Shown piece by piece: positions 1-18,927 of a DNA stretch of 20,417 nt. Position 1 is the stretch's first letter, and every line of letters starts with the position of its first letter. The notes under the pieces were generated by a model. It did no database searches. It was not told the DNA's origin and saw only the letters and a program-made list of their open reading frames with translations. The stretch spans positions 1 through 20,417 of IMG/VR virus record IMGVR_UViG_3300008261_002517; one strand, written 5' to 3'. Source of the stretch: a virus. The position numbers and the translations under genes were made by a program.

Positions 1-778
1 TTTGTGTATAACTTTCAGCTATCAAAAGATTTTCTATTATAAATTGTGAAACCGGTTCACCTTTACTTTTCATAATCTTAGCACATTCAATAACAAACGT
101 ATCTTCTAATCCATAATGTCCTAATGAATCCGGTACCCCTACTTTATCTAATAATGATTTACTTATCAATGTAAACCAACCGCCGGCGAATTTAAATGTT
201 TCTATTTCTTTAACAGCTACTTCACCAATTTGTGGTAAGGTATCTTCATAAACATCTGATATCAATTCATAATCCAATTGGTGATTCCAGAATCTTTCAT
301 TAACGATTACATCCCAAGTATTATCCCATTGCTTTACGAATTGAGGCGTAACCACACACATATCCATACCAGCTTCTTTTAACATCTTAAATGATGATGC
401 CGAATAAAACAATGTACTATCTTTGAATATAAAATCACAATCTAACCAAATAAAAAAATCGGCATCTGGATTATTTTTTAAACTCATTCTTCTTTGGGAA
501 ACGCATCCTAATATTGTCGAGTTCTTATCAAATCGCAATACAAATTCACACCATCCCAAATACTTTTTACATAATTCTTCTGTTCTTTTTAATATATAAT
601 CTTTTGGTAAAAGTGATTCTTCCCAATTAGTTAATTCATCAGATAGACACATAGTAACTTCTACTTTGTAATCTATACTTTTATCTCTAAATACAGAGTT
701 TCTTTTTAGCATGTTTAAAGTTAGTGCTAAATCTTCTAACTCCTGCGGCATCGCAAATATTGTTATAACTCCTTTCAT
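1..778 (-). CDS. GT-A glycosyltransferase, 3' end outside window
   Basis: The frame is open from an ATG at 778-776 to the window edge, giving 259 residues with no stop, so the C-terminus is missing. The N-terminus starts MKGVITIFAMP, a typical first strand of a GT-A Rossmann-like fold. Around residues 110-119 the sequence IWLDCDFIF holds a DxD metal/nucleotide-sugar site (D113, D115). Near residue 220 the motif GHYGLEDTF (E225, D226) resembles the G-x-ED motif of the C-terminal acceptor/catalytic region in GT2-like and galactosyltransferase-like enzymes. The start codon shares one base with the stop of the upstream gene (TAATG), which fixes the start and implies translational coupling. It is the last gene seen of the glycan operon. 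Glycosyltransferase activity is a family inference; donor and acceptor are unknown. Confidence 0.75.
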   Translation of the reverse strand, partial: MKGVITIFAMPQELEDLALTLNMLKRNSVFRDKSIDYKVEVTMCLSDELTNWEESLLPKDYILKRTEELCKKYLGWCEFVLRFDKNSTILGCVSQRRMSLKNNPDADFFIWLDCDFIFKDSTLFYSASSFKMLKEAGMDMCVVTPQFVKQWDNTWDVIVNERFWNHQLDYELISDVYEDTLPQIGEVAVKEIETFKFAGGWFTLISKSLLDKVGVPDSLGHYGLEDTFVIECAKIMKSKGEPVSQFIIENLLIAESYTQ

Positions 779-1506
779 TATCTTATAATTTGTCCATCGG
801 CTTTATCTAATAAAGTTGGATGTTCAACAACATCAATACCACTATTAGTTAAATGCCATCTTAGTAAATATTCATTTCTTAATCCACTATCTTGTCCAGG
901 CCAGCCACCTTGTAAAAACTGAATGTAATTCAAATCATAATTTAAATACCAATCAATTTTTTTATACAATTGTGAATATATTCCCATATTAGTTTGGTTA
1001 CCAATGGCAAATACATCATAGTATCCTCTATGTTTAACTCTCTCATCCGTTTTCCAATCCCAAACATGTACTTTACTCAAATCCAATGATTCCAAATCTA
1101 ATAAAGAATCTTCATATTGTAAATCGAAACGGGTTCTAATTACAACATCATATTTTCTTTCAATTAAATCATACGCTTGATATAAAGAATACCACATCGA
1201 TTTTGAATTCTGAAGTGGTTGCCTCCATAAAGGGTCAACTATTCCTTTATCATCAAATACTTTTGGAGATTCAATAGCAATAGCTTCAGCTTTATACATA
1301 TTTTTAATCTCCGAAAGATAATTGTCAGAATATTCATATACATCTTTTGGTCTATCTTTGAAAAATTGAGTTGCTTCAAATTTACCACCTGCCCAAGTAT
1401 GTAGATAAACATCACAATCGTATCTATCTAAATACGATTTTTTTAAATTATCATAACCTATTTGATAATTTCTCGGTTGACCCGAAACTAAAATTGCTAC
1501 TTTCAT
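778..1506 (-). CDS. Putative glycosyltransferase (SGQPR / RTRFDL type)
   Basis: A 242-residue protein without signal peptide or membrane segment. It starts MKVAILVSGQPRNY, has HTW at 36-38, RTRFDL at 124-129 and DVFAIG at 164-169. This pattern, a strand followed by SGQPR and a central R-x-R-x-D, is one I associate with uncharacterised glycosyltransferase-like proteins of phages and of bacterial surface-glycan clusters. The RFD segment after a hydrophobic strand (VVIRTRFD) would take the place of the DxD loop. It overlaps the upstream gene by 4 nt (ATGA) and the downstream gene by 1 nt (TAATG), so it is translated as part of the glycan operon. The family assignment is from memory and context; substrate and linkage are unknown. 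Confidence 0.55.
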   Translation of the reverse strand: MKVAILVSGQPRNYQIGYDNLKKSYLDRYDCDVYLHTWAGGKFEATQFFKDRPKDVYEYSDNYLSEIKNMYKAEAIAIESPKVFDDKGIVDPLWRQPLQNSKSMWYSLYQAYDLIERKYDVVIRTRFDLQYEDSLLDLESLDLSKVHVWDWKTDERVKHRGYYDVFAIGNQTNMGIYSQLYKKIDWYLNYDLNYIQFLQGGWPGQDSGLRNEYLLRWHLTNSGIDVVEHPTLLDKADGQIIR

Positions 1507-1952
1507 TTTTTATATTTTTCTATGAAATCTGAACAAACTCCAGCTGCTTCCGATACATCATCATTATAGATTTCAGGCATAACAGCTATACTTCCATTTA
1601 TTGGCTGTTTGCCAGGAAATGCCCATATCCAATTTTCTGATGTTAGTGTTACAGTATCGTTTTCGTGCCAAAAATAATTAAATAATTCCAACGAATAATC
1701 GATATCAGTAAGGTATAATAAAGCATCTATGTTTTTACAATGAATCCATAAATTTGAACTTCTTTCTTTTAACCAATCCCATCCTATTGGGTATTGTGGG
1801 GTATCATGTCCTAAAAATAATTCACCATCTATACCCCAAACATCAATCTCTACATCATAACCTAAATCTAATGCAGTTTGTATATAATCTGGTCTATTTT
1901 CTGCTTCAGGTATTTTACCATTCACATTTCCTCTGTGCGATATTAGTATCAT
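1503..1952 (-). CDS. Short glycerophosphodiester phosphodiesterase-like protein
   Basis: This 149-residue protein has the ordered motifs of the GDPD TIM-barrel family. ISHRGN holds H6-R7, PEAEN holds E18-N19 (compare the PEN of GDPD enzymes), VEIDVW holds the metal ligands E35 and D37, LGHD holds catalytic H49-D50, and HCKN supplies K73 in the place of the family's E-x-K strand. Family members hydrolyse glycerophosphodiesters to glycerol-3-phosphate and an alcohol in a metal-dependent reaction. At 149 residues it is much shorter than the usual 230-250, so the barrel's last strands look lost or minimal, yet the N-terminal catalytic residues are intact. It could act on a glycerol-phosphate or phosphodiester-linked sugar made by the adjacent enzymes. 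The start lies one base after the upstream stop, and the 3' end overlaps the next ATG by 4 nt. Confidence 0.7.
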   Translation of the reverse strand: MILISHRGNVNGKIPEAENRPDYIQTALDLGYDVEIDVWGIDGELFLGHDTPQYPIGWDWLKERSSNLWIHCKNIDALLYLTDIDYSLELFNYFWHENDTVTLTSENWIWAFPGKQPINGSIAVMPEIYNDDVSEAAGVCSDFIEKYKK

Positions 1953-1953
1953 A

Positions 1954-2823
1954 TTAATATTCCTCCCCTTCTACAACCTTTCTAGCATCTCCTCTTTCGT
2001 GGTTGTGGTTTTTTGATTTAATTGTGTGATACATATGAACTCCAAATGTACCAATTTCAGTTGAACGATTTATTCCACCCTGATTAAACCCAACATTAAA
2101 CAAATCATGTGCACCTCCCCAAGTTGCATTTGGGTTCAATGCTCTACTTGCTATTTGATGGCAAATACTTAATACATCATTTGTGAATATGTGTAGATTA
2201 TAATCATTTTGAATATTGTGAGATACAAATTTAATAGATGGGTGTGTATCTGCTTCACCATTTGATGAATATTCTTTATACGGGTCGGCTAATGAACCTG
2301 GGGTTATTGGATGATTTGTTCCACCTCTATAATAGGTTGCTAAAGGAGCTACTTCAAACTTATCCAACTTACACAATTCATCGATTTCTGATTGTGGAAC
2401 TTTTGATTTAGCGTTGTATATTGGTAAACTCCATATAGAATTTATATCAGTATGTTTGTTAAATACTTTGTTAAAGTTATGGGATACACAATAATCGGAT
2501 TTTAATAATAATGTTTTGCCTGGCTTATTCAATCCATTTTCAACCAACATTCCCAATTGATTAATGATATCTTGTGTTAATGTTTTTTGACAATCTAATT
2601 CATCATATGGAAATACAGCCAAATTCTGAATATAGTTATTGATATCCAATTCTTTAACTTTAGCTTCCAACCATTCATTACTAATGGTTTCGGAATGTGT
2701 GTTGTATAGGATAAACCAATCCCAAATTATACTTTCACTTTGGGTTTGTAACAAAGAACGTAAGCTATATTCAGCATGTTCTTTTGTTAAGGTTGTGTGT
2801 GTTGTAAATATACAATTATTCAT
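1954..2823 (-). CDS. Putative GT-A-like glycosyltransferase
   Basis: A 289-residue soluble protein. The opening (CIFTTHTTL, then a helix and WDWFILYNTHS at about 34-44) has the alternation expected at the N-terminus of a GT-A fold. A hydrophobic strand ending in KSDYCVS (LLLKSD, D110) sits where a DxD motif would be, but only one acidic residue is present. The middle (about 160-195) is rich in G, N, H and P, and the C-terminus is charged and His-rich. I do not recognise a named family; the role is inferred from this fold-like N-terminus and from its position between a methyltransferase and a GDPD-like gene in a run of glycosyltransferases. It overlaps the upstream gene by 8 nt and ends one base before the next ATG. 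Confidence 0.45.
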   Translation of the reverse strand: MNNCIFTTHTTLTKEHAEYSLRSLLQTQSESIIWDWFILYNTHSETISNEWLEAKVKELDINNYIQNLAVFPYDELDCQKTLTQDIINQLGMLVENGLNKPGKTLLLKSDYCVSHNFNKVFNKHTDINSIWSLPIYNAKSKVPQSEIDELCKLDKFEVAPLATYYRGGTNHPITPGSLADPYKEYSSNGEADTHPSIKFVSHNIQNDYNLHIFTNDVLSICHQIASRALNPNATWGGAHDLFNVGFNQGGINRSTEIGTFGVHMYHTIKSKNHNHERGDARKVVEGEEY

Positions 2824-3427
2824 AATTTAAAAATTCATCGCTATTGATTAAATTAAGTATTTCTACTCTATTTGATTCTAAAAAATCATAATTTAAAATA
2901 GTTGGTATTTCTATTTTTAATTCTTTTCCTATTTGATTTGGCTTTATAACGCCCAATCCTTCATCATCATTTACTACAAATACTTTATATTTTAAATGTG
3001 AGTTATTTTTTCTAAATTTTACAATAGACTTCCAAACATCTCCATTCCAACCATACTCCCATATATCAAAATCAGCAGGTACTCTTTGTCTCATTTCTGA
3101 TATTGGGTTACAATCGTGTAATATTATAACACCATCATCTTCTAAATGTTTAAGAGAATTTTCTATATCTTTATCAACTTGCTCCGTATGATGTAATCCA
3201 TCTATAAAAATAACATCATACTTATACCCCAAAGTTGGTCCAATAGTTTCAAAAAAATCATCGGATGTTAAATGATAGACAGCTGGGCTATTTTCATCTG
3301 GGTCAACGGAATCTTTTATGATTGCATCAACACCACTATAACTATGCCCTTTGTGAACTCCTATCTCCAAATATTTTTTAAATTCTTTTTTAGATAGGTA
3401 ATGATTTATTAAGATTACTTTATTCAT
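2816..3427 (-). CDS. Class I SAM-dependent methyltransferase
   Basis: A 203-residue protein with the SAM-binding Rossmann signature near its N-terminus: YLEIGVHKG at 19-27 (motif I), SVDP at 40-43 (acidic end of strand 2), YDVIFIDGLHH at 70-80 (motif IV-like, D76) and GVIILHDCNP at 99-108 (strand 5). The IDG-x-HH and HD elements are typical of the Methyltransf_24 type and of O-methyltransferases of the TylF/cephalosporin-hydroxylase-like group, which often modify sugars. It probably methylates a sugar hydroxyl or glycan end within this cluster, although a protein or small-molecule target is possible. It overlaps both neighbours by 8 nt, consistent with coupled translation. The fold is well supported; the substrate is not. 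Confidence 0.82.
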   Translation of the reverse strand: MNKVILINHYLSKKEFKKYLEIGVHKGHSYSGVDAIIKDSVDPDENSPAVYHLTSDDFFETIGPTLGYKYDVIFIDGLHHTEQVDKDIENSLKHLEDDGVIILHDCNPISEMRQRVPADFDIWEYGWNGDVWKSIVKFRKNNSHLKYKVFVVNDDEGLGVIKPNQIGKELKIEIPTILNYDFLESNRVEILNLINSDEFLNYE

Positions 3428-4205
3428 TTAAATAAATTTTAGAAAAATATTCTTTTATAGAACCACTCATCTTTGGATTCAAATTATGTGGTTTACTATC
3501 TACAAAATGAAATATTTTTACGGTTGAAACATCTTCTAATTTTAATTCATTTACTGCATCTAAATCGAATAGTAAATAGTTATAATCCGAACTTAAATAA
3601 GTTACAAATATTTGATTAGAACCCACAAAATAATCCAAAGCAGGGGTATCACTGTTAAATCTTCTAGTCTGCTTTGATGCTTCTCTAAATAGAGAACTTA
3701 TTTTTTCATTTACATACTGATGTGTATTTATTATTTGAAATCCTGCATTTGCAGAATATTTATCAAACGGGTCATACCAATTGGGTGCTTCCGCAATCGA
3801 TATTGCTAAATCGCTTTCTAATTCTAATAAATCAAAGTGTGAATTACACATCATATCACCATCACATTTTATAGCATAATCATATGATTCTTTTAAATAT
3901 TCAGGTGCATCGCAATACCAATACATAGCATCGGGCCATCTACCTTTTTGTCCGCTTTCAATATATTGAACATCCGAATATTGATTGTAGTTTTTCTTAC
4001 AATCTCCTTTTACTAACTTAATGTTGTTATCATCGCAAAGCTTTTGAACTTCATCGATTCTTTCTTCATTTATATCTGTAAAATATACATAATCTAATTC
4101 TTCTTTGAAATACTTTTGAAAAGATTTCAACATTCTGATTGGTTCTTTGTTTTCGGATAAAATGTATTCCGAATTACCAGCGCAATATACTACCCACTTT
4201 CCCAT
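3420..4205 (-). CDS. GT8-like glycosyltransferase (GT-A fold)
   Basis: A 261-residue protein. The N-terminus (KWVVYCAGNSEYI, then a helix and DYVYFTDI at 38-45) follows the GT8/nucleotide-diphospho-sugar transferase pattern. YAIKCDGDMMC places a DxD motif at D115-D117. NAGFQIINT at 153-161 matches the GT8 N-(S/A)-G-x-x-(L/I)-(I/L)-N block, and IFHFVDSKPHN (H233, K238-P239-H240) resembles the HF-x-G-x-x-KPW block that contributes the third metal ligand. Together these support a retaining, metal-dependent GT-A enzyme using an NDP-sugar in the cytoplasm. Its start overlaps the stop of the upstream fusion gene by 1 nt, and its 3' end overlaps the methyltransferase by 8 nt. Sugar and acceptor are unknown. 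Confidence 0.7.
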   Translation of the reverse strand: MGKWVVYCAGNSEYILSENKEPIRMLKSFQKYFKEELDYVYFTDINEERIDEVQKLCDDNNIKLVKGDCKKNYNQYSDVQYIESGQKGRWPDAMYWYCDAPEYLKESYDYAIKCDGDMMCNSHFDLLELESDLAISIAEAPNWYDPFDKYSANAGFQIINTHQYVNEKISSLFREASKQTRRFNSDTPALDYFVGSNQIFVTYLSSDYNYLLFDLDAVNELKLEDVSTVKIFHFVDSKPHNLNPKMSGSIKEYFSKIYLNE

Positions 4206-5581
4206 TATTTTTTATAGTTTTCTAAGTAATATTTTAAATCTTCAGGCGTTCCCAACCCCCACATCTTTTCGATGTTGAATGTTTTGATTTTTTTACAATC
4301 ACCAATTGCTTCGTTGAATACAGGACAAACATAGAATTCATTATTTGTTCTGATATTTTTTTCAATCATTTGTTCAGCGTATTTAACATAATCTGAACCT
4401 TTAGCCCAATAGTAAACACCAACAGTTGCAATGTCTGAAATCGGATTCTTCTCTGCTACTTCCGTTACATATCCATACTCATCCACTTTAGCGAATGACC
4501 ATTTAGGATGTGTTGCTGTAAATGAAAGGATACCACCATCAACTTTTTGTTCAATCATTTTATACATAAACTCATTACTATCCCACTCTACGAATTGGTC
4601 AGAGTTTGCCATAAGTAATGGTTCATCGTTGTTAATAAATTCCTTAGCCAACAATGTTGTACAAGCTGCTCCTTCAGTCATACCATCCACTTCTACAATT
4701 TTACAATTGGGAGTGATTAGATTTAATAGAGTATCCAAGTTAAACTTAGCTCTATGCTCTTTTTGTACTACATAGATGAAGTTAGCATCTATATTTAGAT
4801 TATCTACTACAACCTGAATCATAGGTTTACCTTCCACATCAATTAGTGGTTTTGGAAACGTATATCCTGCTGCTGCGAATCTACTTCCAGCGCCTGCCAT
4901 TGGGATAAGAACGTTCATCTTACCACCTTGCCATTTTGGTGTACTCATAATTTTACTTTTTGTTTCGTCTAATTTACTAATAATTTTTGATAAAACCAAA
5001 TCTTTTGGATTATCTACTCTTAATATACTTGCTCTACTTCTACTTGCTGCCAATAAACCATGCGGGGAATCTTCTACAATTAGAGTTTCTTCCGGCAAAC
5101 ATCCCATCATACTCATAGCCTTCCAATACATCTCAGGATGTGGTTTAGAGTTCTTTACATCCTCATTAGAGATAATTAAATCCATATACTCAATAATCCC
5201 TATCTTTGCTAACATCACCAATACAGACCTTCTAATTGAGTTTGAAGCACATGCCAACTTATAACCCCTATCTCTTAATTCCTTAAATAATTCAATCTTA
5301 TCTAAGTCGGGTTGTAATCCTGATATAGCTTCAATTGTTAAGTGTTGCTTTCTATTCCACACATGCTCATGTACATCTTTTGGTAATCCTTTGCTTTTAG
5401 TCAACATATCTAACTTTTGATTTGTTTTCAAACCATCATATGTAGATAAGTGTTCAGCTTCTGATATAACGTACTTATTACTCTGTCCAATTTCCCAAAG
5501 AGCTTGGTTTAGGGTTTTAAAGTGTATTTCTTTTGCTTCTACTAATACTCCATCTAAATCGAAGATAATTAATTTTGTCAT
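4205..5581 (-). CDS. HAD phosphatase/mutase fused to sugar nucleotidyltransferase
   Basis: A 458-residue protein with two complete domains. Residues 1-205 are a HAD hydrolase: FDLDGVLVEA gives the nucleophile D8 and acid/base D10, CASNS gives S113 (motif II), SKPHPE gives K146 (motif III) and VEDSPHG gives E170-D171 (motif IV). The roughly 90-residue helical insert between motifs I and II is a C1 cap, as in beta-phosphoglucomutase and small sugar-phosphate phosphatases. Residues 222-458 are an NTP_transferase domain: PMAGAGSRF at 227-235, FPKPLIDVEGKPM at 242-254, NSD with the metal ligand D328, EKNP at 377-380 and VGVYYW at 387-392. A mutase or phosphatase joined to a nucleotidyltransferase could turn a hexose phosphate into an NDP-sugar for the neighbouring transferases; the exact sugar is unknown. 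The start overlaps the upstream stop by 4 nt. Confidence 0.88.
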   Translation of the reverse strand: MTKLIIFDLDGVLVEAKEIHFKTLNQALWEIGQSNKYVISEAEHLSTYDGLKTNQKLDMLTKSKGLPKDVHEHVWNRKQHLTIEAISGLQPDLDKIELFKELRDRGYKLACASNSIRRSVLVMLAKIGIIEYMDLIISNEDVKNSKPHPEMYWKAMSMMGCLPEETLIVEDSPHGLLAASRSRASILRVDNPKDLVLSKIISKLDETKSKIMSTPKWQGGKMNVLIPMAGAGSRFAAAGYTFPKPLIDVEGKPMIQVVVDNLNIDANFIYVVQKEHRAKFNLDTLLNLITPNCKIVEVDGMTEGAACTTLLAKEFINNDEPLLMANSDQFVEWDSNEFMYKMIEQKVDGGILSFTATHPKWSFAKVDEYGYVTEVAEKNPISDIATVGVYYWAKGSDYVKYAEQMIEKNIRTNNEFYVCPVFNEAIGDCKKIKTFNIEKMWGLGTPEDLKYYLENYKK

Positions 5582-6219
5582 ATTCTATATTTTTCTTTTG
5601 GAAATGTTTCCATATAATGATTCACTTTACTATTGAATATTGAATATGGTTTCCAATTGTTACCTAATTGAATAAATTGCAATTCCGCATTGAATCTATT
5701 TCTTTTTACGTTTTCTAAATTTATTGTTTTTATATAATCAGCTTTTGCCCACCAAAAATTGCCAGAATAAAACTGACATAATGGAATTGAATCCAATAAA
5801 CATCCAAATGTATTATATTTTGTTCTTTCAAATATAGCAAAAACATCATTAACTTTTTCAACATTGAAGTACATCATTAAATTTCTCCAATCTTCTATAT
5901 TTTCATAATTCGAATCGTTTAGTTTGGATGCTCCCTTTGTGTGAAAGTAAAAAACGTAATCCGAATCATTAAATTTACTACTATCTGATTCTAATAACTC
6001 TAATGTAATGAATTCATGCCCTTCCGCTCTAACATCTCTTATTTTGGTTTTATCTAATAGTGATAGAACTTTTTTTGTTGATATGTTTTTGCCTGCTATT
6101 GAAATCCCTATATTTAAATTATATTCAAAATTAAACTTACTTTTAAGTAATTCTATTTGCTCACTTATTATGGTTTCTACCCCATCTATTGCATATATGT
6201 GATAGTAAACATGTACCAT
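5578..6219 (-). CDS. Glycosyltransferase-like protein (HTKG / NFWW type)
   Basis: A 213-residue protein starting MVHVYYHIYAIDG. The open frame continues 22 codons upstream to an ATG at 6285. I chose 6219 because that ATG shares one base with the upstream stop (TAATG), the spacing used throughout this operon, and because the upstream start would overlap the previous gene by 67 nt. Visible motifs are FYFHTKGASK (H93-T94-K95-G96), a following E-x-WR (W111-R112), GC at 139-140, and SGNFWWAKADYI (152-163). The H-(T/S)-K followed by W-R and a later W-rich segment resembles the rhamnan synthesis F (RgpF)-like group and related uncharacterised transferases. Glycosyltransferase function is an inference from this pattern and the operon. 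It overlaps the next gene by 4 nt. Confidence 0.6.
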   Translation of the reverse strand: MVHVYYHIYAIDGVETIISEQIELLKSKFNFEYNLNIGISIAGKNISTKKVLSLLDKTKIRDVRAEGHEFITLELLESDSSKFNDSDYVFYFHTKGASKLNDSNYENIEDWRNLMMYFNVEKVNDVFAIFERTKYNTFGCLLDSIPLCQFYSGNFWWAKADYIKTINLENVKRNRFNAELQFIQLGNNWKPYSIFNSKVNHYMETFPKEKYRI

Positions 6220-6842
6220 TATAAAGTTTCGTAATAATTGTTTTGCTTCTCTTGTCTTTGAATTGTCTTTGGATGCTTTATACAATACATCTCATCCGAT
6301 GGAAACGCTGTGTATGATTCAAACCCACCAATTCTTTCGTGTACTTTTCCAGCCCAACCAATCGTTTCTTTATTTTTGTAGATACGGGTCTGAACATCTG
6401 GAAAGTTAACCCATCCCTTTTCATCTACTCTCCATCCCCATTTTTGAATATGCTCTTCTGTCAATCCTTCCACTGTGTTTATGCGTGGAACTACAATTAA
6501 ATCTTTATCGATATTATTTTCCAATATATCTTCCAAATTAACAATAAGGTTTGGGTCTAAATACTCATCTGCATCCAATTGAAAAATCCACTCACCTTTA
6601 CAATTTGAATTTAAAAAGTTTTTCCAATGAGCAAAATCGTTATCGAATTCCGATTCTATTAAAGTAATATAATCTGCGTTTGCTTGAAGTTCCAAATACT
6701 CAACCATTTCGGTTGGTGCTTTGGGTGTATCTAAAAGAACTACAATTTCTGAATTCTCTCCTTTGTAGTTTAATAATTGTGTAACTAATCTTATAATTTC
6801 TTCGTGTTCATTACAAGCCGTTATTGCGTAACTTAATTTCAT
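6219..6842 (-). CDS. GT2 family glycosyltransferase
   Basis: A 207-residue GT-A enzyme. It opens with SYAITACNEHEEI (residues 4-16), the donor-binding first strand and N-E dipeptide of GT2. It continues with EIVVLLDTP (32-40) and IFQLDADEYL, which gives the DxD motif D90-A91-D92 and E93. KVHERI at 166-171 matches the K-x-H-E block found in WaaE/SunS-like GT2 enzymes such as lipopolysaccharide core glucosyltransferases. The length is short for the family but the catalytic half is complete. The start codon lies 32 nt inside the 3' end of the epimerase gene, the longest overlap in the operon, and its stop shares a base with the next ATG. Expected to transfer a sugar from an NDP-sugar in the cytoplasm; the acceptor is unknown. 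Confidence 0.85.
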   Translation of the reverse strand: MKLSYAITACNEHEEIIRLVTQLLNYKGENSEIVVLLDTPKAPTEMVEYLELQANADYITLIESEFDNDFAHWKNFLNSNCKGEWIFQLDADEYLDPNLIVNLEDILENNIDKDLIVVPRINTVEGLTEEHIQKWGWRVDEKGWVNFPDVQTRIYKNKETIGWAGKVHERIGGFESYTAFPSDEMYCIKHPKTIQRQEKQNNYYETL

Positions 6843-7674
6843 CTATATAACTTTTTAATTTATCGATTGGTTGCCATCCTAATCTTTCAACGGCATCATT
6901 ATTTAATCTTAATGTTTTTCTATAATTTCCTTTTACATCATCTACATACTTTCTATTTGGGTAATCCAACATATCTGCTAATTCATTCAATGAATAATTA
7001 CAACCCGTTCCTAATTCCCAAGCATCTTCATGCTTTTCATCGCTTTCAGCTATTCGTATTAAACCATCAACGATATCATCAACGTGTGTAAAATCTCTAC
7101 GTTGTTCACCATCTCCGTGAATTAAAATTGGTTCATTTTTAGATATAGCATATCTCCAAATTCCAATAACCGCTGCCATGTCAGAGCCAACCAATTCACC
7201 TGGTCCGTAAACATTGTAAAATCTAGCTATCTCACCATTAAATTCATATACTTCTTTAAACATCTTAATCCATTCTTCTCCCATATGCTTTGTTAATGCG
7301 TATGGCGATAACATCGGATTGTGATGGCGAGATGATGAACCGGCATAAATTAATTTACATCCATTTTTATGTGCATATTCAACAACTTTCTTCGTTCCTT
7401 TTACATTACAACTGAACGTTAAGTTTGGATTTTTAAATGATGGCTGTATTCTACTCAATGCTGCTAAGTGAAAGATGTAATCGTAGGATTTATCTTTAAC
7501 ATTATCCATAGCTCTGACATCTCCACCTAAAAAATTTACGAATGGATGAATTTTAGCTTCTTTACCAATAGATAGATTATCAACAACATCTACCTCATAT
7601 CCTCTTTTGAGTAATTCGGATGAGAGAGCATATCCAATAAATCCTGCTCCACCTGTAACTAATACTTTTTTCAT
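6811..7674 (-). CDS. NAD-dependent sugar epimerase/dehydratase (extended SDR, GalE-like)
   Basis: A 287-residue extended short-chain dehydrogenase/reductase. GGAGFIG at 8-14 is the NAD-binding loop, VVDNLS at 30-35 fits the dinucleotide-specificity strand, and FHLAAL at 68-73 is the conserved strand 4 block. Catalytic residues are an SSS at 113-115 and Y125-x3-K129 (YALTK). RFYNVYGPGE and RRDFTHVDDI are the substrate-binding blocks of UDP-glucose 4-epimerase/GDP-mannose dehydratase relatives. It is slightly shorter than the usual 310-340 residues. The reaction is probably 4-epimerisation or dehydration of an NDP-sugar, supplying the adjacent transferases; sequence alone does not fix which. 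The start is coupled to the upstream gene by TAATG, and the 3' end overlaps the GT2 gene by 32 nt. Confidence 0.88.
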   Translation of the reverse strand: MKKVLVTGGAGFIGYALSSELLKRGYEVDVVDNLSIGKEAKIHPFVNFLGGDVRAMDNVKDKSYDYIFHLAALSRIQPSFKNPNLTFSCNVKGTKKVVEYAHKNGCKLIYAGSSSRHHNPMLSPYALTKHMGEEWIKMFKEVYEFNGEIARFYNVYGPGELVGSDMAAVIGIWRYAISKNEPILIHGDGEQRRDFTHVDDIVDGLIRIAESDEKHEDAWELGTGCNYSLNELADMLDYPNRKYVDDVKGNYRKTLRLNNDAVERLGWQPIDKLKSYIDEIKLRNNGL

Positions 7675-8069
7675 TAATCTTCGTTGTGAGGTTTATTATT
7701 TGTATAACTCCAAGAACTACCACTTGGATATCCCGTTGCAGTCGATGTTACAAATTGTGGCGTTGCATATGTAATAGAACCTCCACCCGGTGTTGTTGTG
7801 ATTACTGCCTGCGTAGTACCTGTTCCGAATGAACCCGAACTACACGTTATCTTATATGGATTATATGGGTCTATATAGTGTGGGTGTTGCCACGTTGGAA
7901 ATTGTTGTATGTTTGGAACTCCTATGCCCGGTCCAATTGGTGTACCAACTAAATCATTTACCTCTGCTAATTTATCTTTTAATGCATCCCATTGTTTTGG
8001 TGTGGGTGCGTATTCGTGGCAGGCTTCTACAAAGCCTTTAAGCCATATAACATATTCTTTTGAATTCAT
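7674..8069 (-). CDS. Small phage protein with Ser/Thr/Gly-rich tail
   Basis: A 131-residue protein in two parts. Residues 1-42 form a compact helical segment (KEYVIWLKGFVEAC, then PTPKQWDALKDKL) of a kind I recognise from small uncharacterised proteins in many tailed phages, where W-L-x-G-F and T-P-x-Q-W are conserved. Residues 43-131 are low-complexity, rich in G, P, S, T and aromatic residues, and probably disordered. No catalytic motif, signal peptide or membrane segment is visible. It lies between the frameshifted small gene (2 nt gap) and the epimerase (1 nt overlap), so it is co-expressed with the glycan genes. The function is unknown; a virion-associated or scaffolding-type role is only a guess. 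Confidence 0.6.
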   Translation of the reverse strand: MNSKEYVIWLKGFVEACHEYAPTPKQWDALKDKLAEVNDLVGTPIGPGIGVPNIQQFPTWQHPHYIDPYNPYKITCSSGSFGTGTTQAVITTTPGGGSITYATPQFVTSTATGYPSGSSWSYTNNKPHNED

Positions 8070-8071
8070 AA

Positions 8072-8427
8072 CTATCTACCTTTTAATTGTGAACGTTTAT
8101 CTATTCCGGTAACATTCATATTCTTAGGAGTTATTTCATTAACATCCATAGTCAATTCCACTACCTTTTGTAATCCGCTTATTTTATATGTTCTATAAGC
8201 ATCATTTGTTATAATTGGTACTTTAGCAACAACAGTTTCATAAAACTTTTTAGCTCCGCCTCTCATTTGTAATTTTTCAGTTTCTTCATTTACAAATTTA
8301 CCAAAAAACTTTTTAATCAAATTTGGGTTTACATTAGATACTTTTACACAATGTACTATATCTTTTCCTTAGGAGCTACTATATTTTTATCATCAATGGA
8401 TTTACGATATATTGGATTGTAATTCAT
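8072..8427 (-). CDS. Small protein split by a -1 frameshift (118 aa if joined)
   Basis: The only ATG-initiated frame after the 422-residue gene starts at 8427, one base past its stop, and ends after 23 codons at TAG 8358-8356. The -1 frame is closed by TAA at 8371-8369, then stays open from 8368 to the stop at 8072. The open 82-codon part annotated conventionally from 8320 would begin with TTG, yet coding-like sequence continues upstream of that TTG (HCVKVSNVNPN). Joining the frames at 8362-8368 gives 118 residues running through APKEKDIVHCV without a break in character. The downstream part is basic and helical. I do not recognise the family. Either a programmed -1 shift, a natural one-base loss or an assembly error explains it; the conventional start at 8320 is the least likely reading. 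Confidence 0.65.
8362..8368 (-). other. Possible -1 slippery heptamer GGAAAAG
   Basis: Read on the minus strand the heptamer is G GAA AAG in the frame of the 23-codon ORF. Slipping back one base re-pairs AAG as AAA (the shift-prone A-AAG of tRNA-Lys) and GAA as GGA, and continues into the long downstream frame. The two frames overlap only from 8368 to 8359, so any shift or indel must fall here. An AAGGA sequence overlaps the site. I saw no convincing downstream hairpin. If it is a mutation, the loss of one A from a run of five would give the same break. Confidence 0.4.
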
Positions 8428-8428
8428 A

Positions 8429-9697
8429 TTACTTACTTACCATTTTTAATTTAGGTAACTGCATTGGTTGAAACGTTGGTTGTTTCTTACTATAAATACC
8501 ATACTGATTTAAAATAGTATCAAACAATTTAGTCATTTTTTCCAAACTAAAATTTTGCTTATTTTGCTTACCTAATTGGAATGAATTCACTTTGTACTTA
8601 TCATAGCTTTTGTAAACATCTTTAATTACTGGTAATGACTTGGAAACATTTACATTAAACCACTTTGCTTCTTTTAATAAAAAGTTATCTGCCGCTGATT
8701 CATGTACTTCTTTCAATTCACCTTCTAATAATACTGCTCCACTTTTTAAGAAATCCAAATGACCACTCCAATTAGAAACAATTACAGGCTTACCTGTTAA
8801 ACTGAATTCTAATAATGGTCTACCAAAACCTTCACCTTTTGTGAAATTTATCATTGCTTTTACTTTTGGATGTTCATATAATCCATTCATTTGAGCAGAT
8901 GTTAAATCGCCATGCAATAGATAAACCGGCACGCTTTTATAATCCTTACCCAACGTTTCTCTTATTTTAGAAACCAATCTTTCTCTATCCATTATACTAA
9001 AGCCAGCGGTTGATGTTTTTAGAATTAGAGCAGGTTTTACCTTTTCATTTTTAAAAGCCATTGCGAATGTTTTAATCATCATTCCCACATTCTTTCTATC
9101 TTCTCCTAAATCACCTTTTAACCAATGTCCTACAAATAGGAATGCAAAATCTTCTTTAACTTCATCCAATTCGGAAATATGTGCTACTACTTCAGTTCCA
9201 AAATCGTTTTCATCAAATCCTTCAAAAAGAACTTCTACGGGTTTTTGTATCCTATGTTGTGCAATTAATTGCTTAGTTTTATTATCTTGCTCATTATAAA
9301 CAGTATCAACTAAACTTTTCTTAGCGTGTTCGGATGGAGTTATAATCAAATCCATTCGGTTACATCCGTGAATCCAATCTAATGCACAATGCGTTGTTTC
9401 GATTCCAGCAGTAATTCCGATATTATAGTGTCCTAATGGTTGAAACTCATTTGGTACAGTGACCTGAATATATACATCTGGCTTTTGCTCTGGCTTTTGG
9501 ATAATATTATCTACAATCCATTTATGAAATTCATTATCATAATTTAATGCATCCATTGGAGTTGCCCCCCAACGAATACTAATTACTTTTATTTCGAACT
9601 TATCTAACTTATATAATGAATGTAATAAATCTCTCGCATGGTCTCCGTATCCACTTCTCGTTGCTACGGGTGCCTGAAATACTAATGTTGGTTTCAT
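8429..9697 (-). CDS. GT-B glycosyltransferase (GT4-like)
   Basis: A 422-residue GT-B enzyme. The N-terminal domain has a glycine-rich acceptor loop, TRSGYGDHARDL at 13-24. The C-terminal domain carries the donor site: FLFVGHW at 187-192, an R-K pair at 201-202, a lysine at 227 in ILKTST, then a GEGFGRPLLE segment giving E289-x7-E297, the retaining GT4 signature, followed by GKPVIVSNWSGHLDFL. No membrane helix is predicted by eye, so it acts in the cytoplasm or peripherally. It follows another GT-B gene after a one-base gap and precedes the frameshifted small gene by one base. Donor and acceptor are unknown; the fold and class are secure. Confidence 0.85.
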   Translation of the reverse strand: MKPTLVFQAPVATRSGYGDHARDLLHSLYKLDKFEIKVISIRWGATPMDALNYDNEFHKWIVDNIIQKPEQKPDVYIQVTVPNEFQPLGHYNIGITAGIETTHCALDWIHGCNRMDLIITPSEHAKKSLVDTVYNEQDNKTKQLIAQHRIQKPVEVLFEGFDENDFGTEVVAHISELDEVKEDFAFLFVGHWLKGDLGEDRKNVGMMIKTFAMAFKNEKVKPALILKTSTAGFSIMDRERLVSKIRETLGKDYKSVPVYLLHGDLTSAQMNGLYEHPKVKAMINFTKGEGFGRPLLEFSLTGKPVIVSNWSGHLDFLKSGAVLLEGELKEVHESAADNFLLKEAKWFNVNVSKSLPVIKDVYKSYDKYKVNSFQLGKQNKQNFSLEKMTKLFDTILNQYGIYSKKQPTFQPMQLPKLKMVSK

Positions 9698-9698
9698 A

Positions 9699-11078
9699 TT
9701 ATAACTCTATTAATTTAAATTTTTGTTTTGGTTTCCAATTTTCGAATGCACCTTCCATACCTTCCACTAATGCATCACACATAGCTTCTCTACTTAATTT
9801 TCCTTCACCCATAAAATGCTTTCTACCTTTTAATCCTGCTGATTTTCTATCTTCTTTTGGCGTTTGATACCAATCCATAATCAATGGTGCTACATCTTCA
9901 AAATCAATTCTATCATCAAAAATATATGGAGTAGGAACTGAACCTGTTGTTGAACGAACTGGCCAAATTGGTTTTACCCAATCTCCCCAAACTACACTTG
10001 CTTTTTTATGCTTATCGTGTAAAGAACCAATTTCTAAATAATCTTCTGCGGTTAGTAATTTACCCGTACCTCTTTCTCTAAACCCACATTGGTCTTGCAA
10101 TCCACCCGTTACAGTTGTAATGATTGGAGTCCCTGCCATTACTGATTCCGCAGTTCCTAATCCGAATCCTTCGTTAGATGATAACATAATAGTTACATCT
10201 GCCAAATTGTAAAGATAGTTTAATTCTTCTTCTTTTAATTTTTCATCAACAAATATAATATTTGCATCCGGCATTAAATGTTCTGCTGTTTTTATTAAAT
10301 CAGTACCATGCTCTTCAACGGGTCTAGTTTTCATAACTAAAACAACCTTATCTCTTTTTTCTTCTGGCAATGCTTCTCTAAATGCATTGAATGCTAACAT
10401 CACATCAATTGGTTGCTTTCTTCTGATATTTCTATTTGTCCAATAAAGAACAAATTCATATTCTTTATCACCAAAAATTCTTTCTTTAAAATCTTTTGGA
10501 ACTTCTACTGGTTTGTAGATATCTGAACGGATACCATGTGGTACATAGCTTACTTGCCAATCTTCAGGCTTAGTCCAATGTTTTTCTTTATCCCAACTCC
10601 AAACTCTTTTAGTAATACCATAGGTTTGCTTTGAGATACATCCAATCCAATCACAACTTTCGTAATAATCTCTATTGTATTTTGGGTCTGGCAAATCATC
10701 CCAAATGTGATAAAAGAAAAGGGGAACTGATTGACGAATTTCATGCTCAATCTCATACAACCAAATCCAATATCTAGGGTCGGTGAAGTGTAAGATAGCA
10801 TCTGGCTTTTCCATCATCAATAACTGACGAATAACATCGGGATTACCATATCCATCAAATGGATAAATTTTTACGTTAGCATCTTCTACGCCTGTTTGCT
10901 TTCTAACATCTTCATTTAAATCAAATATTTTTCCTGCTTCAGGGTGTTTGATTGCTGCACCTAATTGTACCCAATCGTATTTGTGAACTGTTCCTAAAAC
11001 CAATTGCTTTGACATATTGGCTATACCACTAGCCATTCGAAGGTCATCGGACAGTAACAAGATTTTTTTCTTTGCCAT
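9699..11078 (-). CDS. GT-B glycosyltransferase (GT4-like)
   Basis: A 459-residue GT-B enzyme. The first strand and acceptor loop are ILLLSDDLRMASGIANMSKQL at about 6-26. FYHIWDDLPDP at 122-132 is a conserved N-domain block, and YVPHGI at 178-183 is the interdomain hinge motif common in GT4. The donor domain shows WTNRNIRRKQP (R-K at 220-221), LVMKTRP at 247-253, and SSNEGFGLGTAE giving E303-x7-E311. GTPIITTVTGG at 316-326 completes the signature. It is the first gene of the long glycan block, 16 nt downstream of the ribbon-helix-helix-like gene, and ends one base before the next ATG. Two different GT-B enzymes in tandem suggest successive sugar additions. Confidence 0.85.
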   Translation of the reverse strand: MAKKKILLLSDDLRMASGIANMSKQLVLGTVHKYDWVQLGAAIKHPEAGKIFDLNEDVRKQTGVEDANVKIYPFDGYGNPDVIRQLLMMEKPDAILHFTDPRYWIWLYEIEHEIRQSVPLFFYHIWDDLPDPKYNRDYYESCDWIGCISKQTYGITKRVWSWDKEKHWTKPEDWQVSYVPHGIRSDIYKPVEVPKDFKERIFGDKEYEFVLYWTNRNIRRKQPIDVMLAFNAFREALPEEKRDKVVLVMKTRPVEEHGTDLIKTAEHLMPDANIIFVDEKLKEEELNYLYNLADVTIMLSSNEGFGLGTAESVMAGTPIITTVTGGLQDQCGFRERGTGKLLTAEDYLEIGSLHDKHKKASVVWGDWVKPIWPVRSTTGSVPTPYIFDDRIDFEDVAPLIMDWYQTPKEDRKSAGLKGRKHFMGEGKLSREAMCDALVEGMEGAFENWKPKQKFKLIEL

Positions 11079-11330: not shown

Positions 11331-12191
11331 TTATTTTCCATCACAATGTGTTCCATAAAATTCACACCATCCGCATAGTTTAGATGGTTTCTTAAAAAAA
11401 TCTACATCGGTTCTATATGAACCATCTGGATTAAATACATTATCCACAAATGCATTAAACTCATTCCAAGCTTTATTAATAGATGGTTTACCATTTGCCG
11501 GAACGTGTCTACTAATGCGTGGAATTACATAATCAGTATTTTCGGAAACTTTTCTTTTTAGAATGATAAACTCAACATCTATCATATCCATAGAAACTCC
11601 TAACATTTCTGAATAGAATTTTTTGTAAAGAAGTATTTGTGCGTTCTTAGTTGGGTCTTTCTTTTGGTATTTACTCCAACCCGATGTAGATGTTTTGAAA
11701 TCTATAATTCTATACTTACCATCGAAAGTACTTCTAACTACCAAATCTATAAATCCTAAGAAATTAATATGTTCTCTGATTTTTGTATTGATTGGTTGTT
11801 CGATTGCTACTAATTCATCATACTTTAAAGAAAAAAAGTTATTGAAATTTTTAGATTTTTGAAAGTAATCTAAAATAAGATTACCATCTTCTAAAAATTC
11901 TACTAATTCTTCTTTACTACAAATTGGGTCTTTACCTTCGTTGGATTCTTTGAGAAAGATTTCTCTCATTTTTTCTTTAAGAAATGCTTTCGTATCCATT
12001 CCCTTATCCGCTTGTGATTTGGAGATACGAAGGCATCTACTTAAATACTCTTGCAACGTTTCGTGCATTGCTGAACCAAATACTGAATGTATATTGGATG
12101 TGGATTGTGATAATCCATCTATGTAACTTAGTTTATATTGTTGTGGGCAACTGCTCCACATACTATATTGTGAAAATGATACTCTAGCCAT
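11331..12191 (-). CDS. PD-(D/E)XK nuclease with Cas4/AddB-type Fe-S cluster motif
   Basis: A 286-residue RecB/Cas4-like nuclease. The N-terminus has SFSQYSMWSSCPQQYK with C15, the first cluster cysteine. GSAMHETLQEY supplies H43. FIDLVV gives D149, IIDFKTS gives D164-x-K166, and NAQILLY gives Q185 of the QxxxY motif. The C-terminus KLCGWCEFYGTHC provides C273, C276 and C283. The C...CxxC...C arrangement is that of the 4Fe-4S domain in Cas4 and AddB. These enzymes degrade or process DNA ends; here it most likely serves phage recombination, replication or host DNA breakdown, not CRISPR, since no cas1/cas2 or array is present. The conserved SFSQYSMW block lies right at the N-terminus, so the ATG at 12191 must be the true start. 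It has its own promoter. Confidence 0.85.
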   Translation of the reverse strand: MARVSFSQYSMWSSCPQQYKLSYIDGLSQSTSNIHSVFGSAMHETLQEYLSRCLRISKSQADKGMDTKAFLKEKMREIFLKESNEGKDPICSKEELVEFLEDGNLILDYFQKSKNFNNFFSLKYDELVAIEQPINTKIREHINFLGFIDLVVRSTFDGKYRIIDFKTSTSGWSKYQKKDPTKNAQILLYKKFYSEMLGVSMDMIDVEFIILKRKVSENTDYVIPRISRHVPANGKPSINKAWNEFNAFVDNVFNPDGSYRTDVDFFKKPSKLCGWCEFYGTHCDGK

Positions 12192-15253: not shown

Positions 15254-17815
15254 TTAAAAGGAGAAAAACTTCTTAGCAGTTTGGGCTTCCGTTGATGCTT
15301 TCTCCCACTTTAGGGCTTTATAAAAATCATCAACTTTGTTTTCCAATTCTGCTTTATAAATCATATCCCTATCAACATATTGCTCTACGAAATCCATAAT
15401 TTCATTTGGGTCATTATAATCTTTGAACGCCACAGTATCTAACCCCAATGGATTGTTTTTAAGATATACCCACTTTACTTTATCACCATCTCTGATTGGT
15501 TCGTGCTTATATGGGCAATTAAAGAATTTCAATAATCGGTTATAAGTGATTCCAGCTTTTACGTGTGCAGGAGTTCCTTTCTCAAAGTTAGCGATTGATA
15601 ACCCACTATCTTTTCTCCAACTACCATCATCGTATTTACTCAACTCTTTAATAGCCCCACCTTTTGCTATTTTATTTACAGGTAAATTAATCATATTCTT
15701 TTTGAACTCTAAAAGAGATTCATCCATATATGCGTTATCTTTACCCATTAAAATATCCTTTAACATCTTAGCCATAAAGTCCTGAAATGCTTTGGGAAAT
15801 GATGAACGAACTACATCCAATCCCTTTACATCCAACTTATCACAAGGGATACCATTCTTTAAAATCATCCATTGAGCGTAACGTTTCTTAGCTACCCAAA
15901 ATCCTGCTTTACTGATGTACTCTTTCTTAATCTCAAATCTATGCTTATCTTTTGGTATAAAGAAAAATCTTTCTGCCAACATATCATAGAATGAGTTTAA
16001 AAATGTTTGAGTTTCTTCGGCGATTGTATTTACCTCTTCAGCCATTCGGTTTTGGTCAAACTCTTTATAGTTGGGATAACGATGTTTCACCAACGGCTCA
16101 GCCATCATATAGATGGAATCCGTATCTATATAAACATTGTAATCTTCTCTTGTTCCGAGTTCTTTCCAGTATTTGATGTTTGCCATCTCTGCTGTTTTTT
16201 TGATAACAGTCTGACCGGTGATTGTAACCGCTTCTGCATTATCAATATCATAAAACCTAAAGGCAGGAAGACCAAGCACGCCATACATAGAATTAAGAAG
16301 AATCTTCTGAACCAACTGCCGTTTTGCATAGAATTCATATTTTTCTGTATCTTTTGCTTCTCCATATTTTTTTTCTAATTTCCTAAATTCAACACGTTTT
16401 TGAAACCAATCATTTAGGATATCTGCGATTAGACCCGGCTTATCTTGTGTATAAAGAACTCCATTTGCAGCAACACCTAAATTACTATCTTTAATAACTT
16501 CTTTTAATTCCTGTGTACTATATTCGTAAGTATCACCATCCTTACCCACTAACTTATATGTCTTTTCAGCACCTCTAATATTTTCCTCTGCATCCCAATT
16601 CTGAATCTTACCAACTTTGGTTTCTGGCGAAATGTTTAGAGTCATAATGATTGATGGATATAGTGATGTTAAATCCAAATCATAAATCCAATCATACTTA
16701 CCAACGATAGGTTCTTTTACATATGCTCCTATAAACTTCTCCTCATTGTTATCTCTAAGAGCCTGCATCCTTTCCTTCCTATCTTTTGGTTTATTAGTTG
16801 CTACCAATCCTTTCTTTTTAAGATATCCCAAACAAGCGCCTTCTAACCATTTAGATGAGAAAATATAATCCTCATATGGTACATATCCGGCGTGGCAAAC
16901 TGCTCTACATAATTCAATGAATTGAAGTTTCTCATCCATTGCTACAACTAAGTCCACATCGACAATGTTATACTCAATGAATTTTTCCAAATCATTTTCG
17001 AATAAATCATCTAAACTTCCTTCGTACTCAACCTTACCTCTACCCAATTCTTTAGTAGCGATATAGTTTAGGGTATAAGATGCTTCTAATGTATATGTGT
17101 AAGTTTTGTATAGATTGATATAATCCAAAATACTTACACCACCAAAACTAAACTTTTCTCTATATGGAGACCAGAATGCCTGACCTATTGGTGATAATCG
17201 TTTAGCGTTACCTTCACCACATACGTTTTTTAATCTGTTATACAAATATGGAATATCAAAGAAATCTATATTCCATCCGGTGAGAATAGTTGGATTAACT
17301 TCTTCGTAATAATTAAGGAAAGCATATAGTAGATTTTTCTCATTGTCAAAAATGTGAACGTTAACTTCTCTACCATCTTTGTTAAAGTTTTTGGCATTGT
17401 TTTTTACTTTTCTTTCTTTATCTAATACGAATACATCATACAATTTAGTTGCTCCATCGTGAGCCGCTATTGCAGTGATTTCGTTCTTTGCTTCTTTTGT
17501 GTTTGGTAGACCTGTTATCATTTCCACCTCAATATCAAATGTAAGAACTCTATGTCCATTCGATGGTAAATCGTTATCGTAGATATCTACTAACACTCTC
17601 GTTGTTTCAGGTACATCCGATTCAAATAAATCTTCAGCATCTTCCTTTTCCCACTTACCAATTTTAGTTAATTTATCGCCATACATAGAACGATACTCAC
17701 CATATGGGTCTTTCTTATACGCATACTTTCGGTATGGAAATGTTTGATATCCACTCTTATCATCCCATAAGTGAATTAAGTTCTTCTGCCTTTCGTAATA
17801 AATGTTTTGATACAT
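15254..17815 (-). CDS. 43: Family B DNA polymerase (T4 gp43-like)
   Basis: An 853-residue replicative polymerase, close to T4 gp43 (898). The 3'-5' exonuclease is intact: TFDIEVE gives D94 and E96 (Exo I), TGWNIDFFD gives N182 and D184 (Exo II), and YNIVD gives Y282 and D286 (Exo III). The polymerase domain shows DLTSLYPS at 381-388 (motif A), KILLNSMYG at 504-512 (motif B) and YIDTDS at 562-567 with D564 and D566 (motif C). The last residues, AKKFFSF, resemble the hydrophobic C-terminal peptide by which T4 and RB69 polymerases hold the clamp. The start is fixed by TAATG overlap with the GT-B gene upstream. It copies the phage genome with the gp45/44/62-like proteins encoded directly downstream. 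Confidence 0.97.
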   Translation of the reverse strand: MYQNIYYERQKNLIHLWDDKSGYQTFPYRKYAYKKDPYGEYRSMYGDKLTKIGKWEKEDAEDLFESDVPETTRVLVDIYDNDLPSNGHRVLTFDIEVEMITGLPNTKEAKNEITAIAAHDGATKLYDVFVLDKERKVKNNAKNFNKDGREVNVHIFDNEKNLLYAFLNYYEEVNPTILTGWNIDFFDIPYLYNRLKNVCGEGNAKRLSPIGQAFWSPYREKFSFGGVSILDYINLYKTYTYTLEASYTLNYIATKELGRGKVEYEGSLDDLFENDLEKFIEYNIVDVDLVVAMDEKLQFIELCRAVCHAGYVPYEDYIFSSKWLEGACLGYLKKKGLVATNKPKDRKERMQALRDNNEEKFIGAYVKEPIVGKYDWIYDLDLTSLYPSIIMTLNISPETKVGKIQNWDAEENIRGAEKTYKLVGKDGDTYEYSTQELKEVIKDSNLGVAANGVLYTQDKPGLIADILNDWFQKRVEFRKLEKKYGEAKDTEKYEFYAKRQLVQKILLNSMYGVLGLPAFRFYDIDNAEAVTITGQTVIKKTAEMANIKYWKELGTREDYNVYIDTDSIYMMAEPLVKHRYPNYKEFDQNRMAEEVNTIAEETQTFLNSFYDMLAERFFFIPKDKHRFEIKKEYISKAGFWVAKKRYAQWMILKNGIPCDKLDVKGLDVVRSSFPKAFQDFMAKMLKDILMGKDNAYMDESLLEFKKNMINLPVNKIAKGGAIKELSKYDDGSWRKDSGLSIANFEKGTPAHVKAGITYNRLLKFFNCPYKHEPIRDGDKVKWVYLKNNPLGLDTVAFKDYNDPNEIMDFVEQYVDRDMIYKAELENKVDDFYKALKWEKASTEAQTAKKFFSF

Positions 17816-18927
17816 TAACCTCTTAGTTTTTCGTTTAATACTTTAATCATTCTACTATCGTTTAACGATAGTTCCTTTGCTCTCTGAATTGCTTTATTCG
17901 ATAATTCTATTCTATGATGTTCATCATCTAATATTTTATCTAACATATCAAACAAGTCCTTTTTATATTTAAAAAATAAACCATTTGGGTCTATTTCTTT
18001 GTAACAATCTGATTCCTGAAATATCATAGGAGTTCCGTTCATCATACAATCGGTAGCCGCTACACTCCAACCATAATTAGTCTGCCTCATTTGAATTCCA
18101 ACTGAACACGATTGTAATTTTTTATAGTAATCATGCTTAGCTACTTTAGTATTATCAATCCACCCAAATTCAGGCTTACCATCTAATTGTGGCACCCACA
18201 CTTTGAAATCTTGTCTACGCTCTCTATATTCCTCCATTAATTTAATAAAAGATGGATATCCCTTATATGCGGCTGCTCTATGATTGAATACAATAACCTT
18301 TTCTTTTGGTTGTAGTGTTTCTATAATTTTAGTATCATCTATACCTAAATTCCAAACCACTAATATACTATTTAATTTTTGAATAAACAAATCATTGAAC
18401 CACAATTTTGCTTCTTCTAAAACTCTATCTTTTTGTTCTTGCGTATTTAAAAAGCAAGTATCCATTTGAGATACACCCAATAATTCTATTGGCATCCATC
18501 TCCATTTATTTTTTCTATCTTCCGCATTGCAGGTTTTCATTTCCCACCAATGACAATACCCAATAATTTTTGTATTGAAGTCGTTTTTATATCTACCAAC
18601 TTGCGGCCAATCAGGTAAATGGGAATAAATTACATCATACTCAATTGTTTCCATCAAACGATTCATATCAGGTGGATATGTTCTCATTTTAATCATATCA
18701 CCTGAAAATTGAAGTATGTGTTGCTTTACATTAATTAGATTTAATTTCTTAACAGGCTGTGGTAATATAATATTCCAAAAGTATTCTCCATGTGATTCCA
18801 ATGATTTAATATGATTGTAAATAACATCTACAAACGAATCTTTTTCAATATTGCCAGAATTAGTAATATTTGGTATTACTAATACTTTTCTAGCTTTTTT
18901 ATAATCAATGGTTTCCCAAAATGCCAT
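17815..18927 (-). CDS. GT-B fold glycosyltransferase in the polymerase operon
   Basis: A 370-residue protein with a GT-B layout. The N-terminal Rossmann half includes VLVIPNIT at 15-22 and IIGYCHWWEM at 121-130. The C-terminal donor half includes VIVFNHRAAAYKG at 211-223 (the R217-K222 region resembling the phosphate-binding R/K pair), FKVWVP at 241-246, VGIQMRQTNYGWS at 276-288, and a GTPMIFQESDC segment at 298-308. The usual E-x7-E is not evident; Y-G-W-S-V-A-A-T-D occupies its place with D293 as the last acidic residue. It lies between the DruA-like gene (1-nt gap) and the polymerase (1-nt overlap), far from the main glycan block. Glycosylation of modified bases in phage DNA is therefore possible, but no base-modifying gene is visible here. 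Confidence 0.7.
   Translation of the reverse strand: MAFWETIDYKKARKVLVIPNITNSGNIEKDSFVDVIYNHIKSLESHGEYFWNIILPQPVKKLNLINVKQHILQFSGDMIKMRTYPPDMNRLMETIEYDVIYSHLPDWPQVGRYKNDFNTKIIGYCHWWEMKTCNAEDRKNKWRWMPIELLGVSQMDTCFLNTQEQKDRVLEEAKLWFNDLFIQKLNSILVVWNLGIDDTKIIETLQPKEKVIVFNHRAAAYKGYPSFIKLMEEYRERRQDFKVWVPQLDGKPEFGWIDNTKVAKHDYYKKLQSCSVGIQMRQTNYGWSVAATDCMMNGTPMIFQESDCYKEIDPNGLFFKYKKDLFDMLDKILDDEHHRIELSNKAIQRAKELSLNDSRMIKVLNEKLRG

Follow-up and report, generated by a model that had tools for sequence, protein, structure and literature searches.

A phage gene block for glycan assembly with a fixed three-glycosyltransferase core and a mosaic tail

Chloroviruses encode glycosyltransferases (GTs) that are soluble, cytoplasmic, and expressed early, and their capsid protein carries a conserved glycan core with virus-specific decorations (PMC5408694, PMC7826918). 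We describe a block of glycan-related genes in a large uncultivated T4-like phage and compare it with this and other known systems. The block runs along an IMG/VR fragment of 20,417 bases (IMGVR_UViG_3300008261_002517, positions 1 to 20,417; this whole stretch is the window below), where it stands beside a T4-type replication module: a family B polymerase, clamp, clamp-loader subunits, a MazG-like gene, and a PD-(D/E)XK nuclease. It resembles the chlorovirus PBCV-1 system in its soluble GTs without membrane domains, its methyltransferase and nucleotide-sugar genes, and its core-plus-decoration layout. The likeness is an analogy, not proof. Chloroviruses infect eukaryotic algae, their acceptor (Vp54) is known, and the phage genes, unlike theirs, form one packed run.

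Documented cases of glycosylated phage virions are few. In mycobacteriophages, phage-encoded GTs reportedly place glycans on capsid and tail-tube proteins (Freeman et al. 2023, as cited in PMC12619734); the GTs are phage-encoded as here, and the hosts differ. The alpha-GT and beta-GT of T4 are likewise GTs of a T4-like phage encoded in the replication region, but they act on hydroxymethylcytosine made by gp42, and most large relatives of the window lack that family. The moraphages are large aquatic phages from fresh and estuarine water with predicted Bacteroidota hosts, PolB, and four core glycosyltransferase orthologous groups (PMC12619734). They share PolB and GT sets with the phages studied here, and usually, though not universally, carry a lysyl-tRNA ligase. 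This ligase (PF00152) was absent from nine relatives of the window while controls were positive, and identity with moraphages is not supported. GT sets in large aquatic phages and virion glycosylation in mycobacteriophages are already known (PMC12619734).

Two isolates, Flavobacterium phage immuto (vB_FspM_immuto) and Microcystis phage Mel-JY01, have comparable GT runs. Both have the order PD-(D/E)XK, GT4a, GT4b, GT2, followed by sugar-modifying genes, at 41-54% identity and with different tails. In immuto, a family A DNA polymerase is encoded close by and an unrelated protein separates GT4b from GT2; the Mel-JY01 GT4a is annotated as two genes (L234 16001-17489), by a split or a frameshift. 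We found no functional test of either GT run in the literature. The window polymerase is 49% identical to that of Mel-JY01, at most about 34% identical to those of other isolates among the matches listed, and 85-99% identical to those of other IMG/VR stretches (best 80 of 389 related); the phage collection searched held no record near-identical to the fragment. Because homologues occur in immuto, in Rhodothermus phage RM378, and in one metagenome-assembled genome (MAG) labelled Flavobacteriaceae, and because the moraphages are similar, the host is probably a member of the Bacteroidota; Mel-JY01 was recorded from Microcystis.

A fixed core and a mosaic tail

What is new is a GT4a-GT4b-GT2 core at a fixed place, restricted to phages as far as searched, followed by a mosaic decoration tail. 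The core follows immediately after the genes for polymerase, clamp, and clamp loader, with the nuclease as its upstream boundary marker (Table 1). The original prediction of a phage glycan-assembly block, made from the letters of the window alone, is well supported, and its description of about 13 packed, co-oriented genes needs small corrections: the run occupies 11078 to 2 of the minus strand and is about 99% coding, but it holds 14 open reading frames (ORFs), of which the last (g1) is cut by the contig end and another (g12) is broken. From g14 to g1 the junctions measure +1, +108, +2, -1, -32, -1, -4, -1, -8, -8, +1, -4, and -1 nt (plus for gaps, minus for overlaps). Most are overlaps of 1-8 nt, in keeping with the few-base spacing that had been described; the larger exceptions are one 32-nt overlap and a single long gap of 108 nt, which is the front part of g12. 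The genes are presumably co-transcribed. Promoter-like and terminator-like sites were no more frequent in the block than in shuffled sequences.

The 3 core enzymes are recognisable from sequence. GT4a (g14) finds its best solved match in B736L of chlorovirus NY2A (3oy2, E 6.6e-7) and keeps the EX7E motif in 105 of 117 orthologues. GT4b (g13) matches Pfam weakly, yet we take it as a GT4 because it shares PHROG 2170 with GT4a and retains the EX7E motif (EGFGRPLLE, in most of 108/111 orthologues); it is likely a paralogue of GT4a. GT2 (g9) completes the core. Two more GTs, g8 and g2, are supported by predicted fold, and g1, g4, and g6, which lack a significant match, are putative. The seven or eight GTs first proposed thus become five supported and three possible.

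Conservation of the core was counted in relatives chosen by polymerase rather than by GT, using only loci long enough to show the gene. The nuclease was present in all 36 such loci, GT4a in 30 of 30, and GT4b in 28 of 28, and GT2 follows in the loci mapped. A pattern-based, non-exhaustive scan of 84,980 species genomes (bacterial and archaeal assemblies) for GT4a returned only six contigs, all short, in MAGs, and phage-like, so the family looks phage-specific. GT4a, GT4b, and GT2 stand in order in all six, at about 40-50% identity; the nuclease and at least one replication gene lie upstream in four. Given this order and these upstream genes, the six are most likely phage contigs in bins. One relative of 111,940 bases (G007) carries two full GT4a copies about 45 kb apart in one contig.

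Behind GT2, constancy ends. Gain and loss among related phages had been suggested as a comparison to make, and that comparison separates the conserved core from a tail of 120 gene clusters in 27 loci, none of them present in 90% of loci and 74 of them singletons. Core identity predicts tail sharing weakly (Spearman 0.22, from pairs that are not independent), and some pairs with 87-93% core identity have less than 20% of the tail in common. One relative with an 85% identical polymerase (L129) shares nearly the whole tail of the window; another at 96% (L177) shares it, in the available sequence, only as far as g8. Tail clusters elsewhere include a DegT aminotransferase, a sugar C-methyltransferase, GNAT, a 2OG oxygenase, a kinase-aldolase fusion, and further GTs. 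At the level of genes rather than glycans, conserved core enzymes and variable decorating enzymes are found together.

What the block may build

We propose, at a probability of roughly one in two, that the block is a two-layer glycan-assembly operon. GT4a, then GT4b, then GT2, all soluble, would act one after another in the cytoplasm to assemble a short core glycan on some product of the phage, most likely a virion protein; the tail, with its nucleotide-sugar synthesis, further GTs, and methyl-, amino-, and acyltransferases, would decorate that core strain-specifically; and the outcome would be to mask or vary the particle surface. We infer in which order the sugars are added, what accepts them, and to what end. 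Of the two functions in the original prediction, virion glycosylation and host-surface remodelling, the former is the better fit and the most economical reading, though it is not demonstrated.

One possible acceptor lies in the block itself. The small protein g11 has a conserved N-terminus and a hypervariable, Ser/Thr-rich C-terminus (mean 31% S+T in 65 orthologues), a composition that makes it a candidate glycan acceptor in the phages that have it. Its role as an obligatory acceptor was dropped from the core claim, since several relatives lack it.

Several points weigh against virion protein glycosylation. The block sits among replication genes, not structural genes, and in one relative (G004) the core is about 90 kb from the gp23 gene. 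The virion glycan is a prediction from genes, and its candidate acceptor, g11, is lacking in immuto as well as in some relatives. B736L, the best solved match of GT4a, is itself without an assigned function. In addition, family absences are read from metagenomic contigs of unstated completeness, and the genome of the window is represented by a 20-kb fragment only.

A broader proposal is held more tentatively, as less likely than not: that a widespread, uncultivated lineage of T4-like Bacteroidota phages is a bacterial-virus counterpart of the chlorovirus system, making an autonomous particle glycan in the cytoplasm, in which the three core GTs never vary while the decoration cassette is exchanged horizontally and gives each phage its own sugar coat.

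The main rival, which the original prediction did not list, is DNA glycosylation. Here the core GTs would attach sugars to a modified base in the phage DNA as a shield against restriction and CRISPR, in the manner of the T4 alpha-GT and beta-GT. We consider this unlikely but a serious rival, kept alive because the core adjoins the polymerase, clamp, and clamp-loader genes. Phage GTs are known to hypermodify DNA (PMC13216743, where Pyle 2024 is cited), which we count for the rival, and immuto encodes DpdA and QueF. T4-type DNA glycosylation depends on a hydroxymethylase from the PF00303 (thymidylate synthase/hydroxymethylase) family, encoded by the same phage. Such a gene occurs in immuto and in one of the 7 large relatives from metagenomes, which favours the rival, but it is absent from the other 6 and from Mel-JY01, all of which have GT4a. 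The cytosine methylase family PF00145 was found in Mel-JY01 only. GT4a and GT4b match GT4 models, in a Pfam scan that reported no AGT or BGT match. For hypermodification of the TET/JBP type, the Tet_JBP dioxygenase (PF12851) gave no match in nine records, but no control responded either, and we do not count this against the rival. Methyl-, amino-, and acetyl-sugar chemistry that varies among close relatives would also suit a surface glycan better.

Remodelling of the host surface is less likely again. The enzymes would alter lipopolysaccharide (LPS), capsule, or other envelope glycans and block superinfection, working through host carrier lipids and transporters. The enzyme set is indeed like that of surface-polysaccharide loci, the mosaic tails are like O-antigen clusters, and host undecaprenyl-linked intermediates and a host flippase could serve the phage. 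Assembly along the usual routes depends on membrane components, however, and the proteins of the block show no convincing membrane segment; the one hydrophobic stretch, found in g7, falls within a soluble HAD domain. None of nine large relatives carried the initiators PF02397 or PF00953, the flippase PF01943, or GtrA (PF04138), whereas the control genomes gave matches; this negative covers four families in records that may be incomplete. The combination typical of lysogenic-conversion gtr or O-antigen (Wzx/Wzy) loci, a flippase or GtrA with an initiating phosphoglycosyltransferase, was thus not seen in these nine; within the four families, the GTs are soluble and stand without an export or lipid-carrier module. 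The GT4a relatives also lie on phage-like contigs only, not in host polysaccharide loci. Together these results weaken the host-surface option.

Finally, it is very improbable that the core GT4s make a small soluble MshA- or BshA-like glycoside for anti-defence or redox purposes beside a tail that is an unrelated accessory-gene hotspot: GT4a matches models of MshA (1.4e-10) and BshA (1.7e-7), though well short of the cut-offs, and tail turnover is high, but no partner enzyme of either pathway was seen in the block, and those tail clusters that can be given a class are mostly sugar-related, which makes the tail something other than a generic hotspot.

Genes of the block and its neighbourhood

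Table 1. Features of the window discussed in the text, in the order of the minus strand within the block
Feature	Positions	Strand	Assignment	Support
PD-(D/E)XK	11331..12191	-	Nuclease, upstream boundary marker of the core	PF12705 8.7e-19; synteny in relatives
g14	9699..11078	-	GT4a, GT-B glycosyltransferase (GT4), first core gene	PF00534 1.3e-11; PHROG 2170 1.2e-22
g13	8429..9697	-	GT4b, second GT4	PHROG 2170 3.1e-22; PF00534 weak, 1.6e-3
g12	8072..8428 (ORF tail 8072-8320)	-	Remnant of a conserved ~156-aa gene	112-nt deletion and frameshift
g11	7674..8069	-	Small protein	PHROG 28500 5e-8
g10	6811..7674	-	NAD-dependent nucleotide-sugar epimerase/dehydratase	PF01370 2.9e-46; PHROG 540 9.6e-59
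g9	6219..6842	-	GT2, third core gene	PF00535 3.8e-10; present in relatives mapped
g8	5578..6219	-	GT-A-fold protein, in about half of relatives	AlphaFold2 pLDDT 94
g7	4205..5581	-	HAD phosphatase/mutase-like domain fused to sugar-1-phosphate nucleotidyltransferase-like domain	PF13419 5.5e-31, PF00483 1.1e-10
g6	3420..4205	-	Putative glycosyltransferase, DGD (DxD-like) motif	No matches in Pfam, PHROG, NCBIfam, solved structures
g5	2816..3427	-	Class I SAM methyltransferase	PF13578 1.2e-12
g4	1954..2823	-	Putative transferase	No Pfam, PHROG or NCBIfam match; no nameable motif
g3	1503..1952	-	Short GDPD-like protein, 149 aa	HRG, EIDV, GHD motifs read from sequence
g2	778..1506	-	DUF7796-related protein, GT-A (GT6-like) fold	AlphaFold2 pLDDT 91
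g1	2..778	-	Putative GT-A protein, WLDxD motif, cut by contig end	Weak GT matches only
GT-B-like gene	17815-18927	-	GT-B-like protein outside the block, between DruA-like gene and polymerase	Without EX7E motif
DruA-like gene	18929-20155	-	DruA-domain gene (Druantia defence system)	PF14236 9.9e-19; PADLOC DruA 2.8e-19

Among the tail enzymes first proposed, the epimerase (g10) and the methyltransferase (g5) are confirmed by their Pfam matches. For the proposed mutase-nucleotidyltransferase (g7), the HAD and nucleotidyltransferase parts stand; the mutase is not shown, the matches to beta-phosphoglucomutase (beta-PGM) models being far below cut-off. RmlA models were likewise matched below cut-off. 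The GDPD-like enzyme is unconfirmed: the motifs of g3 are visible, but its sole family match is PHROG 34507 (3.2e-35), a PHROG without an assigned function, and there is no match in Pfam or NCBIfam.

The two fold-supported GTs rest on AlphaFold2 models. The g8 start was corrected from TTG 6285 to ATG 6219. Its model aligns with heparosan synthase 8viw (VIA Z 12.1, 3.0 A over 167 residues) and with viral models at TM 0.76-0.84, among them a Klosneuvirus glycosyltransferase; in Foldseek, nucleotidyltransferases are similar too. The g2 model aligns with the bacterial GT6 4ayl (VIA Z 11.8, 3.8 A over 185 residues), and PF25072 was found in 37 of 58 members of the g2 family, which in other phages also forms tandem arrays of 2-4 genes (L264, L253, L285, L273). 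Both are predicted GT-A folds, and a common fold is no proof of activity. Searching solved structures with sequence profiles of g1, g2, g6, and g8 yielded no usable match, and in profile-profile comparisons g1 stayed apart from the g2, g4, g6, and g8 families, as did g2 from g6. Complete g1 orthologues are 289-304 aa long.

Between GT4b and GT2, the frame of g12 is intact in about 90 relatives. Its 112-nt deletion, read against one of them (L164), has the same junction in no other locus compared, and could reflect either a true mutation or a fault in the assembly. Programmed frameshifting, suggested by an out-of-frame upstream ORF, was dropped, since relatives carry the gene as a single uninterrupted frame and the deletion is unique to this contig. 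Neither g12 nor g11 has relatives in the phage collection, and the immuto protein at their place showed no resemblance to g12 in the test made.

Outside the block, the DruA-like gene adjoins the phage polymerase region and is kept in at least 45 relatives, with distant homologues in Pelagibacter phages and cyanophages. The GT-B-like gene beside it occurs in about half of the polymerase relatives.

If the proposed reading is true, aquatic phages of an entire lineage would produce sugar coats by their own means, the core being constant and the decorations interchangeable. This would bear on the surface variation of these phages and would supply phage-specific GT4 enzymes. Since the isolate immuto has the same core, the idea is directly testable.

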